Source: Variovorax boronicumulans NBRC 103145 (GTDB lineage Bacteria > Pseudomonadota > Gammaproteobacteria > Burkholderiales > Burkholderiaceae_C). Taken from it: DNA of 64,000 nt. The stretch spans positions 1-64,000 of the forward strand of contig NZ_BCUS01000024.1 of the NCBI RefSeq assembly GCF_001591345.1, given 5' to 3'. Positions within the stretch are counted from its first letter, which is position 1. Every line of letters begins with the position of its first letter. Shown piece by piece: positions 35,964 through 61,700 of the stretch. Position numbers and translations under genes: made by a program. The notes under the pieces were generated by a model. The model had not been told where the DNA came from and did no database searches. It saw only the letters and a program-made list of their open reading frames with translations.

Positions 35964-36027
35964 TGAAATCAAGACTGTGCGCGGGAAACCTCATAGATTA
36001 CTCTACGCGGCCGCACAGCACCAAGCA

Positions 36028-36402
36028 CTATTCCGCGCCCAGGCTCCACTCGACTTCGGAAGTGCCGCCCTGCGGCTCGATGCTGCCCTGGATCTGCTCC
36101 TTGAGCTTGGCGCTCGCATGGAAGGTGGCCACGCGGCGTTCGCCGATCGGAATGGCTTCGCCGGTGCGCGGGTTGCGCCCGGGACGCGGCGCCTTCACGC
36201 GGATCTGGAAATTGCCGAAGCCCGAGATCTTCACGTCCGTGCCTTCGATCAGGCTGCTGGCCACGAGCTCGAAGAACGCCTCCACCATGTCCTTCGATTC
36301 ACGCTTGTTCAGGCCGATCTGCTCGAACAGCAGGTCGGCCAGGTGCGCCTTGGTGAGCGCCGGCGTTTCGAGGGCTTCGAGCGTGAATTCGGCGGCGTTC
36401 AT
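36028..36402 (-). CDS. ihfA: Integration host factor subunit alpha
   Basis: 124 residues. HU/IHF fold: ALTKAHLADLLFEQIGLNKR near 18, DMVEAFFELVASSLIEG, VKISGFGNFQIRVKAPRPGR with the DNA-clamping beta-arm, and NPRTGEAIPIGERRVATFHA. IhfA pairs with IhfB to bend DNA. ATG 36402 has GAGAGG six bases upstream, which overlaps the pheT stop region; the ATG at 36408 is too close to that site. The N- and C-termini are somewhat extended, as is common in Comamonadaceae. Part of the thrS operon. Confidence 0.95.
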   Translation of the reverse strand: MNAAEFTLEALETPALTKAHLADLLFEQIGLNKRESKDMVEAFFELVASSLIEGTDVKISGFGNFQIRVKAPRPGRNPRTGEAIPIGERRVATFHASAKLKEQIQGSIEPQGGTSEVEWSLGAE

Positions 36403-36404
36403 CT

Positions 36405-38846
36405 TCATCCTCTCAAGCGGCCGCCCAGGGTGGCGCCCAGTTGTTCGACGATTGCACGGACAGCGGGTTCGACCTGCTCGTCCGTCAGCGTGGCGGCATC
36501 GCTCTGGAAGGTCAGGCGCACGGCCATGCTCTTCTCGCCCGGTGCCAGCGCACCCGGCGCCGCCACGGCGCCTTCGCGCAACGGCTGCGGACGGTAGATG
36601 TCGAACAGCGTCGCATCGCGCAGCAGGCCCGAGGCGGACGCGCCCGCGCGGATGGCCTGCATCAGCGCGTCGTGCGACACCGCTTCGGCCACGACCACCG
36701 CGATGTCGCGTTCGACGGCCTGGTGCTTGGGCACCGGCTGCGCCACGGGCACGGGCCGCGCCGTGACGGCGTCGAGGTCGAGTTCGAACAGCACGGGCGC
36801 CTGGGTGAAGTCCCACTTCTGGCGCCAGCGCGGATGCAGTTCGCCGATGAAGCCGATGGCCTGGCCGTCGAGCAGCACACGGGCCGAACGACCGGGGTGC
36901 AACGCGGGGTGCTCGGCCGCTTCGAAGGTCGGCACGCGCGGTGCGAGCAGCGCTTCGACATCACCCTTGACGTCGTAGAAGTCAACACGCTGCGGCTTGC
37001 CGTCCCAGCGCGACGCCTCGGCATCGCCCCAGGCCAGGCCGGCCACGCGCATGGGCTGGTTCACGCCGCGCACGGTGCTGTCGGTGGTGACAACGCTGTC
37101 GTCGCGCAGGAACACGCGGCCCAGCTCGAACACGCGCACGCGCGGTGCCTTGCGGTCGAGGTTGAACTTGAGCACCTGCAGCAGCGAACCGAGCAGCGAC
37201 GAGCGCATCACGCTCATCTGGCTGGCGATGGGGTTCAGCAGCTTGACCGGATTGGCGTTGCCCGCCAGGTCCTGCTCCCAATGCGCCTCGACAAAGCTGA
37301 AGTTGATGGTTTCCTGGTAACCCAGCGCTGCAACGCTGCGACGCACCGCGAAGCGGCTGCGCTGCGCTTCGGGACGAACGCGGGCAGTGATGGGCGCGAG
37401 CGGCGCGGTGGTCGGCAGGTTGTTGAAGCCGATCAGGCGCGCCACTTCTTCGATGAGGTCTTCCTCGATCAGCAGGTCGAAGCGGTGCGGCGGCGGCGTG
37501 ACTGTCAGCGTGCCTTCGCCTTCGGTGATCGCGAAACCGAGGCGGTGGAGCGCATCGGCGCATTGCGCCTGCGTCAGCGGCATGCCGATGACACGTGCGG
37601 CGCGGGCCACGCGCAGCGTGACGGGCGCGGCTTCGGGCAGGCGCAGCGTCTGGTCGTCCATCTTGCCGGCTTCGCCGCCGCAGATCTCGATGACCAGTTG
37701 CGTGATGCGCTCGATGATCTGCACCGTGCGGCTCGGGTCAACGCCGCGCTCGTAGCGGTGGCCGGCGTCGGTCGAGAAGTTGAAGCGGCGCGAACGGCCT
37801 TGCACGGCCTCGGGCCACCAGAACGCGGCCTCGACGTAGATGTTGCGCGTGTCGTCGGTCACCGAGGTGGCGTCGCCGCCCATGATGCCGGCGAGCGATT
37901 CGACTTCGCGGTCGTCGGCGATCACGCCGACCTTTTCGTCGACGGTGATCGTCGTGCCGTTGAGCAGCTTGAGCTGTTCGCCCGCCTTGCCCCAGCGCAC
38001 CGTGAGGCCGCCGTGGATCTTGTCGAGGTCGAAGATGTGGCTGGGCTGGCCGTACTCGAACATCACGTAGTTCGAGATGTCGACCAGCGGCGTCACGCTG
38101 CGCTGGCCGCAGCGCGCGAGGCGCTCGACCATCCACGCGGGCGTGGCGACCTTGGTGTTCACGCCGCGCACGATGCGACCCGAGAAGCGGCCGCACAGGT
38201 CGGGTGCCTCGACCTTGACGGGCAGCACATCGGAGAACGACGTGGCCACGGCCGCGATGGCCGGCGTCTTCAGCGGTGCGCCGGTGAGTGCGGCGAGTTC
38301 GCGCGCCACACCGTACACGCTCAGGCCGTGCGCCAGGTTCGGCGTGAGCTTGAGCGTGAGCAGCGCGTCGTCGAGCTTGAGCACGTCGCGCACGTCGGCA
38401 CCGAGGGGCGCGTCGGCGTCGAGTTCAAGCAGACCGCCGTGGTCTTCGCTCAGCTTCAGCTCGCGCGCCGAGCACAGCATGCCCTGGCTCTCGACGCCGC
38501 GCAGCTTGCCCAGCTTGATGAGGAAGGGCTTGCCGTCTTCACCCGGCGGCAGTTCGGCGCCGACGAGGGCGCACGGCACCTTGATGCCGACGCGCGCATT
38601 GGGCGCGCCGCACACGATGTTCAGTAAAGCGCCCTGCCCCACGTCGACCTGGCACACGCGCAGGCGATCGGCATTCGGGTGCTGCTCGGCTTCCTTGATT
38701 TCGCCGACCACGATGCGCGTGAAAGGCGGGGCCACCGGACGGCGCTCTTCGACCTCGAAGCCACCCATGGTGAGCGTTTCGGCCAGTGCGGCGCTGTCGA
38801 GGGGCGGGTTGCAGAACTCGCGCAGCCAGGATTCCGGGAATTGCAT
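36405..38846 (-). CDS. pheT: Phenylalanyl-tRNA synthetase beta subunit
   Basis: 813 residues. It begins MQFPESWLREFCNPPLDSAA. The EMAP-like tRNA-binding domain is at about 40-150 (VVGEIKEAEQHPNADRLRVC, VCGAPNARVGIKVPCALVG). B3/B4, B5 and the core domain follow, with EDLIEEVARLIGFNNLPTT near 460-480. The C-terminal anticodon-binding FDX-ACB domain spans about 720-813 (KHQAVERDIAVVVAEAVSH). Forms an alpha2-beta2 enzyme with PheS and carries the editing function. Ends two bases before the ihfA start. Confidence 0.97.
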   Translation of the reverse strand: MQFPESWLREFCNPPLDSAALAETLTMGGFEVEERRPVAPPFTRIVVGEIKEAEQHPNADRLRVCQVDVGQGALLNIVCGAPNARVGIKVPCALVGAELPPGEDGKPFLIKLGKLRGVESQGMLCSARELKLSEDHGGLLELDADAPLGADVRDVLKLDDALLTLKLTPNLAHGLSVYGVARELAALTGAPLKTPAIAAVATSFSDVLPVKVEAPDLCGRFSGRIVRGVNTKVATPAWMVERLARCGQRSVTPLVDISNYVMFEYGQPSHIFDLDKIHGGLTVRWGKAGEQLKLLNGTTITVDEKVGVIADDREVESLAGIMGGDATSVTDDTRNIYVEAAFWWPEAVQGRSRRFNFSTDAGHRYERGVDPSRTVQIIERITQLVIEICGGEAGKMDDQTLRLPEAAPVTLRVARAARVIGMPLTQAQCADALHRLGFAITEGEGTLTVTPPPHRFDLLIEEDLIEEVARLIGFNNLPTTAPLAPITARVRPEAQRSRFAVRRSVAALGYQETINFSFVEAHWEQDLAGNANPVKLLNPIASQMSVMRSSLLGSLLQVLKFNLDRKAPRVRVFELGRVFLRDDSVVTTDSTVRGVNQPMRVAGLAWGDAEASRWDGKPQRVDFYDVKGDVEALLAPRVPTFEAAEHPALHPGRSARVLLDGQAIGFIGELHPRWRQKWDFTQAPVLFELDLDAVTARPVPVAQPVPKHQAVERDIAVVVAEAVSHDALMQAIRAGASASGLLRDATLFDIYRPQPLREGAVAAPGALAPGEKSMAVRLTFQSDAATLTDEQVEPAVRAIVEQLGATLGGRLRG

Positions 38847-38891
38847 CTCTTCGATCTCGATCTGGTTTTTCTATCTGTGGAGGGGGCGTGC

Positions 38892-39968
38892 TTACTGGAA
38901 CTGCGAGAGAAAACGCAGGTCGCCGTCGAAGAACAGGCGCAGGTCGTTCACGCCGTAGCGCAGCATGGTGAGCCGGTCGGGGCCCATGCCGAAGGCGAAG
39001 CCGATGTAGCGCTCGGGGTCGAGGCCCATGTTGCGCACGACGTTCGGGTGCACCTGGCCCGAGCCGGCGACTTCGAGCCAGCGGCCGGCCAGCGGGCCGC
39101 TCGCGAACTGGATGTCGATCTCGGCGCTCGGCTCGGTGAACGGGAAGAAGCTGGGGCGGAAGCGCAGCACGAGGTCGTCGCGCTCGAAGAAAGTGCGGCA
39201 GAAGTCGGTGAAGACAACCTTCAGGTCCTTGAAGCTGACGTTCTCGCCGAGCCACAGGCCTTCGCACTGGTGGAACATGGGCGAATGGGTGGCGTCGCTG
39301 TCGACACGGTAGGTGCGGCCGGGCGCGATCACGCGGATCTCGGGCGCCTTCACGGTGCCGGTGGTGTCGGCAGCAGCAGCGGCGAACTCGGCCGCGTACT
39401 TCTTGGTGTGCTGGTGGGCGTAGCGCACCTGCATCGGGCTGGTGTGCGGACGCAGGTTGTAGGGAATGCCGTCGTCGCCCTTGAGGTCGACGTAGAAGGT
39501 GTCCTGCATCGAACGCGCCGGGTGGTTCGGCGGGTTGTTGAGCGAGGTGAAGCTGTGCCAGTCGCTCTCGATCTCGGGGCCGTCGGCCACGTCGAAGCCC
39601 ATGCTCGAGAAGATCTCTTCGATGCGCTCCAGCGTGCGGCTCACGGGGTGCAGTCCGCCGCCGGCGCGATGGCGGCCGGGCAGGCTCACGTCGAGCGCTT
39701 CGGCGCGCAGCTGCAGCGAGAGTTCTTCATCGGCGAGTTGCTGGCGGCGATCGGTCAGTGCAGCCTCGATGGCCTGCTTGCCGACGTTGATCGCGGCACC
39801 GCGGGACTTCTTCTCTTCGACACTCAGCGCAGCCATGCCCTTCATCAGCTCGGTGATGCGGCCCGACTTGCCGAGGAACTGGGCCTTGGCGTTTTCGAGC
39901 TCTGCGGGCGTTTTCGCTTCGGCGAAGGCGGCGCGTGCGGTGTCGACCAGGGAGTCCAACTCGTTCAT
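38892..39968 (-). CDS. pheS: Phenylalanyl-tRNA synthetase alpha subunit
   Basis: 358 residues from ATG 39968 ([20 protein letters not shown]). An N-terminal coiled coil covers about 1-90, followed by the class II core with motif 2 ([17 protein letters not shown]) and motif 3 ([17 protein letters not shown]). It charges tRNA-Phe. The rplT-pheS gap of 112 bases contains a U-tailed hairpin, annotated separately. 45 bases separate its stop from the pheT start. Confidence 0.97.
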
Positions 39969-39990
39969 AGCAACAAAAATCTTCGAGGGG

Positions 39991-40028
39991 AAATAAAAAA
40001 GAGCTGGAGCCTTTTCAAGCGCCAGCCC
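39991..40028 (-). terminator. Hairpin with U-tract between rplT and pheS (attenuator or partial terminator)
   Basis: On the minus strand GGGCTGG (40028-40022) pairs with CCAGCTC (40007-40001), and is followed by TTTTTTATTT (40000-39991). It is a rho-independent terminator shape inside the operon, 22 bases before the pheS start. A second small hairpin CCGTC-TCCG-GACGG lies just upstream (40050-40063). Enterobacteria have the pheM attenuator at the same place, but no Phe-rich leader frame is seen here. It may reduce read-through into pheST or mark an mRNA processing site. Confidence 0.65.
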
Positions 40029-40080
40029 TTGAGCCGTGGGCGCAAGAAGCCGTCCGGAGACGGCGACCTGCTGTGCAAAA

Positions 40081-40440
40081 TCAAGCAGCCAGCTTGGCCT
40101 TGACCTGCTCCACGATGCCGGCAAAAGCGGCCTTGTCGTGCACGGCGATGTCCGCAAGCATCTTGCGGTCGATCTCGATACCGGCCTTGCGGATGCCGTT
40201 GGCGAACTGGCTGTAGGTCAGGCCCAGTTCACGCGAGGCGGCGTTGATACGCGCGATCCACAGCTGACGGAACACGCGCTTCTTGGTACGGCGGTCACGG
40301 TAGGCATATTGCCCAGCCTTCATCACCGCCTGTTTGGCGACGCGGAAGACATTGCCGCGGCGACCGCGGAAACCCTTGGCGAGTGCGAGAACTTTCTTGT
40401 GGCGGGCGCGAGCCGTTACACCACGTTTGACGCGAGGCAT
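40081..40440 (-). CDS. rplT: 50S ribosomal protein L20
   Basis: 119 residues, standard length: [60 protein letters not shown] and the C-terminal globular part ending EQVKAKLAA. It binds 23S rRNA early in assembly and in enterobacteria also represses rpmI-rplT translation. It follows rpmI by 24 bases with an AAGGAG ribosome site. Confidence 0.98.
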
Positions 40441-40464
40441 GTGTGTACTCCTTGTTCGTCTGAG

Positions 40465-40668
40465 TTAAATGCCACGACCGGGCAGCATGGCGGCGACAGA
40501 AACCATGTTGGTCTCATGCACTGCGACTGCACCACGCAGGTGACGCTTGTTCTTGGTGGTCTTCTTCGTCAAGATGTGACGCTTGAAGGCTTGACCGCGC
40601 TTGACGGTGCCACCGGGACGAACGCGGAAACGTTTTTTCGCGCTGCTCTTGGTCTTCATTTTGGGCAT
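40465..40668 (-). CDS. rpmI: 50S ribosomal protein L35
   Basis: 67 residues: [20 protein letters not shown] at the start, then [20 protein letters not shown], and the end MLPGRGI. Standard L35. It is preceded by a 153-base untranslated gap after infC, the region where L20 autoregulates the mRNA in E. coli; an equivalent pseudoknot here is possible but not demonstrated by eye. Confidence 0.98.
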
Positions 40669-40821
40669 GTGAATGCTCCTTTAGTTTGTGCTCGTGAGGC
40701 GCCGCGGATACTCCACGGACTTGTTGGCCCCGAGACACTTCTTTATCTCGCCCCCGCCTGCACTTCTTTCGAAATGCGGGCCAGGGCGAAATCCCTTCAA
40801 AACCCGTCTACTGCAAATGCC

Positions 40822-41436
40822 TCAGGCGGTTGCCGTGGGCGCTGCTGCCGGCGCAGCATCTGCTGCCGGCTTCGGCGCCGCGCCGCCAACCTTCTTGCGG
40901 CCCGGAGCGATCATCATGATCATCTGACGGCCTTCCAGCTTCGGGAACTGCTCGACCATGATCGTGTCGCCCAGCTCGTCGCGAATGCGCTGCAGCAGAG
41001 CCAGACCGAGCTCCTGGTGCGTGATCTCGCGGCCGCGGAAGCGCAGCGTGATCTTGCATTTGTCGCCCTCTTCAAGAAAGCGCCTGATGTTGCGCATCTT
41101 GATGTTGTAGTCGCCATCGTCGGTACCGGGCCGGAACTTGATTTCCTTGACCTCGATGACCTTCTGCTTCGACTTCGCCTCGGCTGCCTTCTTCTGCTCG
41201 TGGTACTTGAACTTTCCGTACTCGATCAGGCGGCACACGGGCGGATTTGCCGCAGCAACGACCTCCACCAGATCCACGTCGGCCTCACCCGCAAGGCGCA
41301 AGGCTTCGGAAAGGCTCATGACACCCAATGGCTCGTTTTCCGGGCCGACCAGGCGGACTTCCGGGGCCATGATTTCCCGGTTCAGGCGGTGTTGGCGTTC
41401 CTCGCGGTGGCGGCGGTCGCGAAATGCAGTAGCGAT
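40822..41436 (-). CDS. infC: Translation initiation factor IF-3, rare ATC start
   Basis: 204 residues if read from ATC at 41436, with AAGGA eight bases upstream. This gives the N-terminus [20 protein letters not shown] before [20 protein letters not shown], which matches the full-length factor. Starting at ATG 41370 would drop 22 residues that are part of the conserved N-domain. infC of other bacteria uses rare codons (ATT) for autoregulation by IF-3 proofreading, so ATC fits. N-domain about 1-95, C-domain with [19 protein letters not shown]. The tail (about 185-204) is rich in Ala and Pro. Confidence 0.9.
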
Positions 41437-41546
41437 GGTCAGAATCCTTCAAAGTTTGCTACAAAATCTGTAGCGATCGCCGCTCAGTCTTCGCGGACAG
41501 GCGGCACGATGTGGCAGAGAAACATATGGGGTGTTTCAGAGACAAA

Positions 41547-43454
41547 TCAACGCTTGTCAGCAACGTCCTGGACGAGCCGTTGCGTGAACGATTCGAGGGA
41601 CATTGCACCGAGGTCTTGATTGCCCCGGGCGCGCACTGCGACGGCACCTGCTTCCTTTTCCTTGTCACCCACGACGAGGATGTAAGGGAGCTTTTGCAAC
41701 GAATGCTTCCGTATTTTATACGTAATCTTTTCGTTGTGCAGATCCAGCTGAACTCTAAGCCCTTGATTTTGCAGCGTTTTCGCAACTTGCGCCGCGTAGT
41801 CGGCCTGTCCTTCGCTGATATTGAGCACCGCCACCTGCACCGGAGCGAGCCATGCGGGCATGGCGCCGGAGTGGTGTTCGATCAGCATGCCGATGAAGCG
41901 CTCGAGGCTGCCGACGATGGCGCGGTGCAGCATCACCGGGTGGGCGCGGCCGCTCGATTCCGTGACGTACTCGCCGCCCAGGCGCTCCGCCGTGTTGAAG
42001 TCGACCTGCATCGTGCCGCACTGCCAGTGACGGCCAATGGCGTCGCGCAGCGTGTACTCGATCTTCGGGCCGTAGAAGGCGCCGTCGCCGGGCGAAATGA
42101 CGAAGTCCACGCCCGAGCGGCGCAGCGATTCCATCACCGCGTGCTCGGCCTTGTCCCACAGTTCGTCGGAGCCGACGCGGTTCTCGGGCCGCGTCGCGAC
42201 CTTGTAGAGAATGTCCGTGAAGCCGAAGTCGGCGTAGACCTTCTGCAGCTGTGCCGTGTAGGCGATACATTCGTCGAGGATCTGGTCTTCCGTGCAGAAG
42301 ATGTGGCCGTCGTCCTGCGTGAAGCCGCGCACGCGCATGATGCCGTGCAGCGCACCGCTGGGTTCGTTGCGGTGGCACTGGCCGAACTCGCCATAGCGCA
42401 GCGGCAGGTCGCGATAGCTGCGCAGGTCGCTCTTGAAGATCAGCACGTGGCCCGGGCAGTTCATCGGCTTGAGCGCGTACTCGCGCTTCTCCGACTCCGT
42501 CGTGAACATGTTGTCGCGGTAGTTCTGCCAGTGGCCCGTCTTCTCCCACAGGCTCTTGTCCAGGATCTGCGGGCCCTTCACTTCCCAGTAGCCCGTGTCG
42601 CGGTAGATGCCGCGCATGTACTGCTCGACCTGCTGCCAGACCGCCCAGCCCTTGGGGTGCCAGAACACCACGCCCGGCGCCACTTCGTCGATGTGGAACA
42701 GGTCGAGTTCCTTGCCCAGCTTGCGGTGGTCGCGCTTCTCGGCTTCCTCGATGCGCTGGATGTACTGGTCCAGCTGCTTCTTGTCGGCCCAGGCCGTGCC
42801 GTAGATGCGCTGCAGCTGCTCGTTCTTGGCGTCGCCGCGCCAGTAGGCGCCGGCCAGCTTCGTGAGCTTGAAGACCTTCAGGAAGCGCGTGTTCGGCACG
42901 TGCGGGCCGCGGCACATGTCGACGTATTCCTGATGGTAGTACAGGCCCATGGCCTGCTCGTCGGGCATGTCTTCGACCAGGCGCAGCTTGTAGTCCTCGC
43001 CGCGCGACTTGAAGACCTCGATGACTTCCGCACGCGGCGTCATCTTCTTGATCACGTCGTAGTCCTGCGCGATCAGCTCGCGCATGCGCGCCTCGATGGC
43101 GGCCATGTCCTCGGGCGTGAACGGGCGCTCGAACGAGATGTCGTAGTAGAAGCCTTCGTCGATCACCGGCCCGATGACCATCTTGGCCGTCGGGTACAGC
43201 TGCTTCACCGCATGGCCGACCAGGTGGGCCGTCGAGTGGCGGATGATCTCCAGGCCCTCGTCGTCCTTGGGCGTGATGATCTGCAGCCTGGCGTCGCGGT
43301 CGATGACGTCGCTGGCATCGACGAGCTTGCCGTCGATCTTGCCGGCCACCGTCATCTTGGCGAGGCCGGGGCCGATGGACTGGGCCACTTCGGCCACCGA
43401 AACCGGGCCGGGGAACTCGCGGCGCGAGTTGTCGGGGAGCGTGATCTGGATCAT
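41547..43454 (-). CDS. thrS: Threonyl-tRNA synthetase
   Basis: 635 residues. The N-terminal TGS domain is 1-60 ([20 protein letters not shown]), then the editing domain ([20 protein letters not shown]), and the class II core with zinc ligands including [10 protein letters not shown] and motif 2 [14 protein letters not shown]. The anticodon-binding domain follows at the C-terminus, with [20 protein letters not shown]. First gene of the operon thrS-infC-rpmI-rplT-pheS-pheT-ihfA-merR. Its 5' leader carries an attenuator-like structure. Confidence 0.97.
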
Positions 43455-43470
43455 GTGAAAACCTCGGGGA

Positions 43471-43504
43471 GAAAAACAAAAAAGCGCGGTGGATGCCGCG
43501 CTTT
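43471..43504 (-). terminator. Leader terminator (attenuator) ahead of thrS
   Basis: On the minus strand AAAGCGCGG (43504-43496), loop CATCCA and CCGCGCTTT (43489-43481) form a perfect 9-bp stem followed by TTTGTTTTTC. It lies upstream of the thrS start on the same strand, 27 bases from the stem end, so it would stop transcription before thrS. An upstream segment CCGCGCT (43540-43534) can pair with the 5' arm AGCGCGG and would form the anti-terminator. A separate hairpin CGCTGG-TTTTT-CCAGCG (43533-43517) lies between. Confidence 0.75.
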
Positions 43505-43542
43505 GCTTGGTTGGTGCGCTGGAAAAACCAGCGAGCGCGGGG

Positions 43543-43608
43543 CTACCGGCCCTTTCCTTCGAAGAAGAAAAAGCCGCCGAATCCTTGCGGGGTAGTTCGC
43601 GGTGTCAT
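43543..43608 (-). CDS. Leader peptide of the thrS operon, Phe/Thr-rich, 21 residues
   Basis: ATG 43608 to TAG 43543. The peptide starts MTPRTTPQ (three Thr) and continues GFGGFFFF (five Phe, four in a row, codons TTT TTC TTC TTC) before a short charged end. AAAGG lies about 10 bases upstream of ATG. The stop codon is immediately followed by the anti-terminator segment CCGCGCT, so a ribosome finishing the peptide would cover it. A ribosome stalled at the Phe codons would leave it free. This is the classical layout of amino-acid attenuation. Confidence 0.7.
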
Positions 43609-43651
43609 AACCAAGGTGCCTTTCTCGCTCTTGTTGAGTGCAGAGTGGGCG

Positions 43652-43657
43652 ATTCTA
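43652..43657 (-). promoter_or_regulatory. Candidate -10 element of the thrS operon
   Basis: TAGAAT on the minus strand, 44 bases before the leader-peptide ATG. No convincing -35 hexamer is found 16 to 18 bases upstream, where the sequence is GC-rich and overlaps the end of the thioesterase gene. The position is right for the leader transcript. Confidence 0.4.
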
Positions 43658-43670
43658 GCCGCTGCCTGCT

Positions 43671-44489
43671 TCAGCCGCGCGCCTCGAACAGGAGGCTGGA
43701 AACGCACTGCCCGACCAGCCCGCCGCGGTCATGCAACTGCCCGACGGCATAGCCCGTGCCCATCGGGCCCGCAAGCGTGAGGGCATCGACCAGCATCCAG
43801 TCGCCGCGCGGCGCGCGCCGCAGGTTGATCGTCAGGTCGGCATTGACGAAGCCCAGCCGCGCCGGATGCGCCCACTGCGAGATGCCCGCCACGAGATCGG
43901 CCGCCGAGGCCACCTGGGCCAGCGGCGACGCGGCCTCGTCGTCGACCAGCGGCCGGCCCAGGCGCAACCACGCGGCCGCCGGGCCGGGCTCTAGGATCTG
44001 CCCGCGTGCCATGCGCACGTCCACGCCGGCAAAGAACGGGCTCATGCGGGACGCCACCGCGGGAATGGGCGCGCCCTCTTCCGGCGGCGCGAATGTCACA
44101 GCGGCGAAGGCGTCGGCGGCCGGCAGCGCGGGCGTCTGCCCGCTGCGCAGCAGCAAGGCGGTGCAACGCAGCACGGACTTGCCGTCCTGGACCATGTCGA
44201 ACGCCACCGTGCGCGCCTTGGCGCCGTCGCGCAGCAGCGTGAATTCGAGCGTGATCGGCGCCCGGCTCGCCGGGCGCCAGAAATCGAAGCTCAACCGCGC
44301 CACCTCGCGGCCGCGGCTCGCCTCGTGCGCCTGGAGCGCGCGCACAAGCAAGGCGGCGGTCGCGCTGCCCTGCAGGGCGTCGGCGGACCACGGGCCGATG
44401 GCCGCCTCGGTGGGCACGAAGCGTTCGCCATCGCTGACGAACACCGGGTCGCCGATAGGTGTCGTCATGGGCTGCACCTGCACGCTCAC
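43671..44489 (-). CDS. Thioesterase-superfamily (TesB-like hot-dog) protein
   Basis: 272 residues. Double hot-dog layout: the first half carries GPWSADALQGSATAALLVRA and ARLSFDFWRPASRAPITLEF, the second half WAHPARLGFVNADLTINLRR and ending TGYAVGQLHDRGGLVGQCVS. These match the thioesterase family of TesB-like proteins with a conserved GQLHD-R-G end. GTG 44489 overlaps the upstream stop (GTGA); ATG 44468 is an alternative start. Probably hydrolyses an acyl-CoA. Co-transcribed with the ABM protein. Confidence 0.82.
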   Translation of the reverse strand: MSVQVQPMTTPIGDPVFVSDGERFVPTEAAIGPWSADALQGSATAALLVRALQAHEASRGREVARLSFDFWRPASRAPITLEFTLLRDGAKARTVAFDMVQDGKSVLRCTALLLRSGQTPALPAADAFAAVTFAPPEEGAPIPAVASRMSPFFAGVDVRMARGQILEPGPAAAWLRLGRPLVDDEAASPLAQVASAADLVAGISQWAHPARLGFVNADLTINLRRAPRGDWMLVDALTLAGPMGTGYAVGQLHDRGGLVGQCVSSLLFEARG

Positions 44490-44800
44490 GACGCCGCGGC
44501 CGCCACGTTCTTAAGGCCCAGCACTTCGATCGGCTCGATCGAGGGCGGTCCAGCGAACAGCTCGGGCGCCTGCGCCATCAGGGCCTGGGCGATCGGGCCG
44601 GTCAGGTGGGCCTGGCGGCCGGCTTCGTCCTCGAACGCATCGAACACGCCGAAGGTGCTGGGCGACAGCCGCAGCGCAAACCAGATCGGCGTGGTCTTTT
44701 CCTCGCGCGCCATGGCCAGGCCGGCCTCGAGGAATTGCTGGACGGCGACCTCCTTGCCGGGCTTGGCTTCAAGGCGGGCAAACAGTGCGAACTTGATCAT
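44486..44800 (-). CDS. Antibiotic biosynthesis monooxygenase (ABM/YgiN-like) protein
   Basis: 104 residues from ATG 44800 with AGGAGA upstream. The dimeric ferredoxin-like fold is visible in MIKFALFARLEAKPGKEVAV, TTPIWFALRLSPSTFGVFDA, and FEDEAGRQAHLTGPIAQAL. Such proteins include quinol monooxygenases and small heme or polyketide oxygenases. The function here is not defined. Its stop overlaps the start of the thioesterase gene. Confidence 0.82.
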   Translation of the reverse strand: MIKFALFARLEAKPGKEVAVQQFLEAGLAMAREEKTTPIWFALRLSPSTFGVFDAFEDEAGRQAHLTGPIAQALMAQAPELFAGPPSIEPIEVLGLKNVAAAAS

Positions 44801-61330: not shown

Positions 61331-61430
61331 AGAAAATCCCCGCGCGGGCGAAGGTCTGGCGCGCGGGTGACAACCCCGCGCTGCACGGGGCTTCTAGAAT
61401 CGCGCCGTCGTCCGGTTCGCCGGACGGCAA

Positions 61431-61585
61431 GCGTTCTCAGGGCGGGGTGCAATTCCCCACCGGCGGTGATGGCAACGAAAGTTGCACAAGCCCGCGAGCG
61501 CCTCGGACCTGCCACAGGTTCGAGGGTCAGCAGATTTCGGTGCGATTCCGAAGCCGACGGTCACAGTCCGGATGAAAGAGAGCGC
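61431..61585 (+). ncRNA. FMN riboswitch (RFN element)
   Basis: Conserved core visible in order: GGGCGGGGTGCAATTCCCCA (61440-61459), CCGGCGGTGAT, AGCCCGCGAGCG, CAGATTTCGGTGCGATTCCG, AAGCCGACGGTCACAGTCCG and GATGAAAGAGAG. P1 pairs GCGTTCTC (61431) with GAGAGCGC (61578-61585). Downstream, GCGGGCATGCCCGC (61591-61604) and a T-run at about 61619-61626 form a candidate expression platform. FMN binding should lower expression of the lumazine synthase gene that follows. Confidence 0.96.
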
Positions 61586-61700
61586 GAAATGCGGGCATGC
61601 CCGCGCGCCTTGCTTTGCTCTTTTTTGGCAGACCGGCGCGCGAGCGGGCCTGTGGTTTCGTGCGCCCTGATTCAGGAAACCTGCTTTCAAGAGGCACACC

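Follow-up and report, generated by a model that had tools for sequence, protein, structure and literature searches.

The minus-strand leader directly upstream of thrS in Variovorax boronicumulans NBRC 103145 is probably an attenuator of transcription through which a translating ribosome adjusts the thrS-infC-rpmI-rplT-pheST-ihfA operon to the supply of threonyl-tRNA, a reading to which we give a probability of roughly 0.72. RNA polymerase would start near position 43645 of the window (the whole 64,000-nucleotide stretch of DNA analysed here), and a ribosome would begin translating a leader peptide that opens with MTPRTT. When charged tRNA-Thr is ample, the ribosome would reach the stop codon and cover a segment termed strand 2, strand 3 would pair with strand 4, and transcription would end. 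When charged tRNA-Thr is short, the ribosome would wait at the rare codons ACA and ACU (and at codon 6), and strand 2, left free, would pair with strand 3 and let polymerase read through into thrS. Comparison with related leaders supports the reading frame, the in-frame selection of Thr codons, the complementarity of strands 2 and 3, and the terminator; we infer which amino acid is sensed, in which direction the system responds, and that the promoter is used, the leader translated, and the ribosome stalled. We set our confidence no higher because of a control with slid structures and the modest size of the strand 2-3 effect.

If this reading is correct, many related bacteria would control IF-3, L35, L20, IHF, and both synthetases through one amino-acid switch. 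An earlier note on this DNA had described a Phe-rich attenuator sensing Phe (or Thr) supply, an interpretation that our comparison supports in part: the Thr half gains from frame-specific codons and is the likelier signal, and the Phe half fails as a general signal. The case also warns against taking a run of a single amino acid in a leader ORF as the sensor by default; here, comparison indicates that the run is a hairpin arm.

Anatomy of the leader

Every part that the earlier note had placed in the interval 43471-43660 is present on the minus strand where it had been located, from the -10 hexamer and the ORF to CCGCGCT, a hairpin, and the terminator. The -10 hexamer TAGAAT (43652-43657), which lacks a good -35 element, probably marks the leader promoter; 58 of 60 genus leaders have a TANAAT 25-75 nt 5' of their ATG, and no sigma-70-type promoter was called between 36000 and 44600, TAGAAT included. 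A Shine-Dalgarno-like GAAAGG (43619-43624) lies within the conserved stretch CAAGAGCGAGAAAGGCA and precedes an ORF of 21 codons plus TAG (43543-43608), in which five codons are for Phe, four of them consecutive, and three, codons 2, 5, and 6, are for Thr. A near-invariant 18-mer, GGTTATGACACCGCGAAC (43595-43612), covers the start codon and codons 2-5 and includes the putative strand 1, CGCGAAC (43595-43601, codons 3-5). Strand 2, CCGCGCT (CCGCGCU in the RNA; 43534-43540), stands directly 3' of the stop codon as the candidate 5' half of an anti-terminator, which would enclose hairpin B (CGCUGG-UUUUU-CCAGCG, 43517-43533; 97.5% of cells paired in the genus alignment, one pair with two-sided changes). 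The intrinsic terminator AAAGCGCGG-CATCCA-CCGCGCTTT (43481-43504) has a perfect 9-bp stem formed by strand 3 (43504-43496) and strand 4 (43489-43481), followed by a U-rich tail (43472-43480).

The first gene of the operon, thrS (41547-43454, minus strand; NCBIfam TIGR00418, 722 bits), begins with an ATG at 43454. NCBIfam identifies the genes of the operon, in order, as thrS, infC, rpmI, rplT, pheS, pheT, and ihfA, extending to 36028. The region 36000-44600 contains nine terminator-like sites, of which the one in the leader is richest in pairs (9, six of them G-C). Shuffles of the same region yield a mean of 6.5 such sites of any strength, so the count by itself tells us little. Folding of the whole leader is slightly better than that of shuffles (z -1.7; 11 of 200 shuffles equal or better), and the case for the leader beyond chance rests on its conservation.

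A near-invariant translation start

Searches for ThrS matched 59 of 61 genomes of the genus Variovorax and 290 of 299 of the family, and we compared the regions upstream of 97 thrS loci, window included: 60 from the genus and 37 from other genera, mostly those with the most similar ThrS. The 18-mer block occurs upstream of thrS at every one of the 60 genus loci, 59 times exactly and once with 1-3 mismatches, and at 32 of the 37 others (30 exact), or 92 of 97 in total, 89 of them exact; the five without it are L038, for which just 205 nt of upstream sequence is present, L053, L056, L058, and L088. What relatives share is the translation start, MTPRT, which had gone unremarked before. In the 92 family leaders, chosen by at most 2 mismatches to the 18-mer, conservation is almost complete in the columns from -4 to +13 relative to the ATG and falls sharply at +17. 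These leaders use ACA in 92 cases, CGA in 90, and ACU in 86, codons that are rare in the thrS genes of the family (ACA and ACU, 19 and 27 of 1429 Thr codons; CGA, 46 of 2419 Arg codons). The V. boronicumulans genome itself holds one exact copy of the 18-mer and three others with 3 mismatches.

The block extends beyond this family. A pattern scan of named genomes, with a pattern that presupposes the block, found at least 119 stretches, whose titles are mostly Comamonadaceae and Oxalobacteraceae; among the matches listed, a ThrS start lies within 500 nt of the stretch in 117 of 119, and in the remaining two the available sequence ends 333 and 29 nt downstream. A sequence-model search of 399 genomes of the order (E 0.01), with filters that lose weak matches, matched 59 with one match per genome, and all 50 of those that we fetched have both the block, with up to three mismatches in 17, and a downstream ThrS. 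The same kind of search in 229 genomes of the class, our own included, gave three strong matches, all from the family of the window. Four weak class-level matches outside the family were rejected: three lack the block, and the fourth (L253) has it with two mismatches, without a downstream ThrS and without a terminator by our rule. Across 60 thrS upstream regions from 48 other families of the order, represented by one or two each and chosen irrespective of the block, it is present in 4 (two of family f3, one each of f23 and f47) and absent from 56, and families f10, f32, f35, and f39 are mixed, some members having the block and others lacking it. Some families of the order thus carry the block widely, and in most others sampled it was not seen.

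Just before the start codon, GGTT is replaced by CGTT in some families (GCGTTATG; L248, L258, L262, L266, and others). GGU and CGU are both Thr anticodons and the preceding base is not a conserved U; mimicry of an anticodon is only a thought.

Threonine codons in the leader frame

A comparison of reading frames supports a Thr signal. After removal of 19 duplicates, 266 block-bearing loci gave 247 distinct sequences; we set aside three without a terminator, kept 244, left out one 48-codon frame, and reduced the tails after codon 5 to 85 dissimilar ones outside the genus and 10 in or next to it, the latter group including L033-L036 of neighbouring genera. Outside the genus, 156 of 741 in-frame codons are for Thr, versus 22 and 27 of 741 in the other two frames (p 1e-39); for Phe, the counts are 42 versus 32 and 39 of 741 (p 0.41). 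In or next to the genus, Thr codons number 18 of 148 in frame versus 2 and 2, and Phe codons 18 of 148 versus 7 and 7 (p 0.006, from 10 tails); all these p values are too sharp, as the tails are mutually related. The local Phe excess leaves room for an added Phe response. An apparent Phe excess outside the genus over mononucleotide shuffles (z 5.9) was not borne out by the frame control.

Two tRNA-Thr species found in the genome, with anticodons UGU and GGU, would read ACA and ACU, and CGA would be read by the ACG (inosine) Arg tRNA. Two observations count against a plain Thr switch. Near-universal Thr codons are just two, codons 2 and 5, and tails such as MTPRTCFFLR and MTPRTRSLPR hold no more; moreover, the constancy of the 18-mer, at synonymous sites and at bases before the ATG, exceeds what sensing of Thr needs. 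Even where strand 2 and the terminator differ between leaders, the 18-mer is conserved. In favour of a Thr signal, other Thr-rich ORFs (at least 3 Thr at 25% density) occur in some families that lack the block, in 8 of the 60 regions sampled, among them MQRTSTKTITYLG, MIMQLNRTTTTS, MFKRTTTTRISR, and MAVRTTTTHP, and the same rule applied to Phe finds one in 60; each of the eight has p of at most 0.05 against its own shuffles, uncorrected for 60 tests.

The constancy of the block admits two other readings. In one, which we regard as possible though rather improbable, the 18-nt block would itself be the sensor: a start-proximal stall or a bound factor would hold the ribosome within the first five codons, AUG-ACA-CCG-CGA-ACU with its rare codons, and the tail would drift freely, in Variovorax into a hairpin that resembles a Phe sensor. 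A regulator found across several families would then act through a near-invariant translation start rather than a codon run. In the other, the block would serve as a structured element or be bound by a partner such as ThrRS, some other protein, or an RNA, with the peptide of minor importance. Constancy at synonymous positions and 5' of the ATG speaks for this reading, but we consider it unlikely, for in-frame selection of Thr codons extends past the block, and the only structure predicted there is a hairpin of 4 bp that shows no two-sided changes. Matched to the genome's own 16S and 23S loci, flanks included, the 18-mer is no more complementary than 20 shuffles, and tRNA-Thr is not the best partner among the 29 tRNA types found, for a typing that covered 30 of 50 tRNA loci. 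A candidate contact of a 35-nt stretch of the window with rRNA was also rejected: it scores -32.2 on the 16S locus versus a minimum of -30.9 in 20 shuffles, and -30.9 on the 23S locus versus a shuffle minimum of -35.2, and the stretch varies in part between species.

The phenylalanine run as a hairpin arm

The four consecutive Phe codons of the window coincide with a pairing that the earlier note did not mention. In hairpin A (43547-43576), CGGCUUUUUCU, which encodes the Phe codons, pairs with GGAAAGGGCCG, which encodes EGKGR, positions 43576-43566 facing 43557-43547. We aligned 57 distinct sequences, 54 from the genus and 3 from a neighbouring genus, with L036 and L064 left out; 92.4% of cells in the 11 pairs are paired and 7 of the 11 pairs show two-sided changes. 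The whole structure beats 500 of 500 shuffles in both cells paired and covariation score. When structures are slid by 1-3 columns, two-sided changes still appear at 6 to 8 pairs versus 8 observed, so that count alone does not discriminate; what does are the cells paired (96% versus 46-59%) and the covariation score (0.166 versus 0.064-0.122). Hairpin A is kept where the peptide reads LFPEG, ASHEG, or QVQEG and, in the neighbouring genus, PLPQG. The Phe run looks like a local side effect of RNA folding: in Variovorax, part of the ORF tail forms a hairpin, and in certain species the 5' arm of that hairpin reads by chance as Phe codons.

Frame and hairpin bear directly on the proposal that stalling at the Phe run is the main signal. 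Such an attenuator would be in keeping with the four consecutive Phe codons, the presence of pheST within the operon, and the in-frame Phe excess in or next to the genus, and a ribosome stalled at the run would likewise leave strand 2 free. A run of at least 3 Phe codons within the first 26 codons is nonetheless patchy, occurring in 32 of 60 genus leaders (33 if L064, whose frame reads into the terminator, is included), namely all 31 nearest the window and 1 of the 29 less close; there is no in-frame excess outside the genus; and the run is an arm of a hairpin that persists without Phe. On these grounds we reject Phe attenuation as a general mechanism, and we judge it highly improbable that stalling at the run is the main signal. 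The comparison does not support Phe as a conserved signal, and conserved Phe codons of the pheM type are not found in the leader.

A dual sensor in part of Variovorax, in which Thr would be the older signal and the Phe run would add a response linking both synthetases, fares somewhat better, and we still think it doubtful. The geometry would permit anti-termination from a stall at either site, and the run is in frame in all 31 loci nearest the window despite tails of variable length; against this, hairpin A explains the run without selection on codons.

One genus member (L064) has a leader frame of 48 codons that runs through the terminator, with a stop codon that overlaps the thrS start; both the block and the terminator remain.

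Terminator and mutually exclusive pairing

The putatively translated leader, the terminator, and the mutually exclusive pairing of strands 2 and 3 put forward in the earlier note are each supported by comparison. A terminator by our rule is present in 244 of the 247 distinct block-bearing sequences; of the three without, one ends with its contig, one is degenerate, and one is a chance match from another order. In 80 representatives, strand 2 begins at a median of +4 from the stop codon and at or before +11, the assumed edge of the ribosome, in 90%. All of strand 2 lies within +11 in 46% of them, and the segment of the window, 43540-43534, is wholly inside.

The duplex of strands 2 and 3 has a mean rank of 17.6% against dinucleotide shuffles (243 leaders). 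Paired with their own partners, the arms of the 80 representatives reach a mean of -13.4 versus -12.1 for permuted arms, and none of 5000 permutations is as low, in a test where shared ancestry stays in the comparison. The effect is modest: the own arm beats the mean of foreign arms in 70% of the 80 representatives, with a mean rank of 34%. Examples include CUAGUCG with arms of the CGGCUAG type and GUUCGCGC with GCGCGGAC; in L249, UCGAGG and CCUCGA match on inspection by eye. Weak duplexes occur in L095, L161, and L258 (-2 to -3 kcal/mol) and in L262 and L269 (about -4 kcal/mol). Within the genus, six pairs, CCGCGC:GCGCGG, are kept in 55-57 of 57 sequences and a seventh in 21 of 57, and no covariation between strands 2 and 3 was found there, as the pairing barely varies.

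Pairing of strands 1 and 2 is weaker than that of strands 2 and 3. A GUUCGCG that follows the stop codon in many relatives complements strand 1, a match that is poorer in the window, and the mean rank of the 1:2 duplex against shuffles is 28% overall, 19% in or next to the genus, and 43% in other families. Folding with a ribosome placed at each codon gave no clean switch on a Thr stall. A hairpin around the stop codon was not found as a general pause site by folding of a fixed 42 nt (mean z -0.15 in or next to the genus, -0.53 in 64 others, 0.16 in 21 from other families).

By itself, the terminator could simply end transcription of the upstream gene, or the leader could yield a trans-acting small RNA, with no attenuation in either case. 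Such an account seems extremely unlikely, in that the terminator is preceded by an anti-terminator segment that matches it and by an ORF whose Thr codons are under selection, and the unit adjoins thrS in 167 of 167 listed loci with enough sequence (117 from the pattern scan and 50 from the order search).

Relation to known systems

In Escherichia coli, the pheM/pheST attenuator consists of a leader before pheS that senses Phe. Attenuation in V. boronicumulans would resemble it in combining a leader peptide, a terminator, and an anti-terminator before a tRNA-synthetase gene, and would differ in its position before thrS and in having Thr as the signal that is conserved. Between rplT and pheS in the window, no Phe-run leader was seen, and the sole nearby terminator-like site on the same strand is a weak, 5-bp one (40099-40087). 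E. coli also controls thrS through an operator on its own mRNA, to which ThrRS binds in feedback with no known attenuator peptide; the target gene is shared, whereas the operator works by enzyme binding and the leader described here would work by an attenuator peptide. Threonine leaders of the RF00506 type likewise precede a terminator. Our leader differs from these, as no Rfam 15 family reached its gathering score in the leader of the window or in 12 related loci searched.

Part of this background is touched on in the literature. The available text of PMC2659441 names the Thr leader RF00506 of thrABC-type operons, and that of PMC2965389 mentions autoregulation by E. coli ThrRS. In Streptomyces lividans (Actinobacteria), a proposed thrL before thrS encodes a leader peptide with Thr codons, MKRVRPFLETTPGFVPAR, with a leaderless start and a hairpin that has no U-rich stretch and so forms no clear terminator, according to the available part of PMC8079986. 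To that extent, the two systems are alike in placing a Thr-codon leader peptide before thrS and unlike in the peptide itself. The best sub-threshold match of Rfam to the minus strand of the leader, the Burkholderia small RNA ncS025, was rejected at 13.9 bits versus a threshold of 46; PMC5688073, in its available text, gives coordinates for ncS25 and no link to thrS. Our literature search found no description of a thrS leader in this order, with supplementary tables and most subscription papers outside its scope and an earlier description possible. The logic of attenuation is known; for this group, neither a leader before thrS nor a start block of such constancy appears to have been described in the literature covered.

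Other features of the locus

In 40 of the 60 thrS upstream regions from other families (L276-L335), ARAGORN calls a tRNA-Val(GAC) gene in the same orientation as thrS and no more than 450 nt ahead of it, so that one transcript may span the tRNA and the thrS operon. In E. coli, infC starts on the non-standard codon AUU, and infC of the window probably also has a non-standard start, an ATC at 41434-41436 of the minus strand (ATC GCT ACT GCA TTT...), in frame with an ATG at 41370 and with an SD-like GAAGGA upstream. Elsewhere in the window, an FMN riboswitch is present on the plus strand at 61429-61587 (107 bits).
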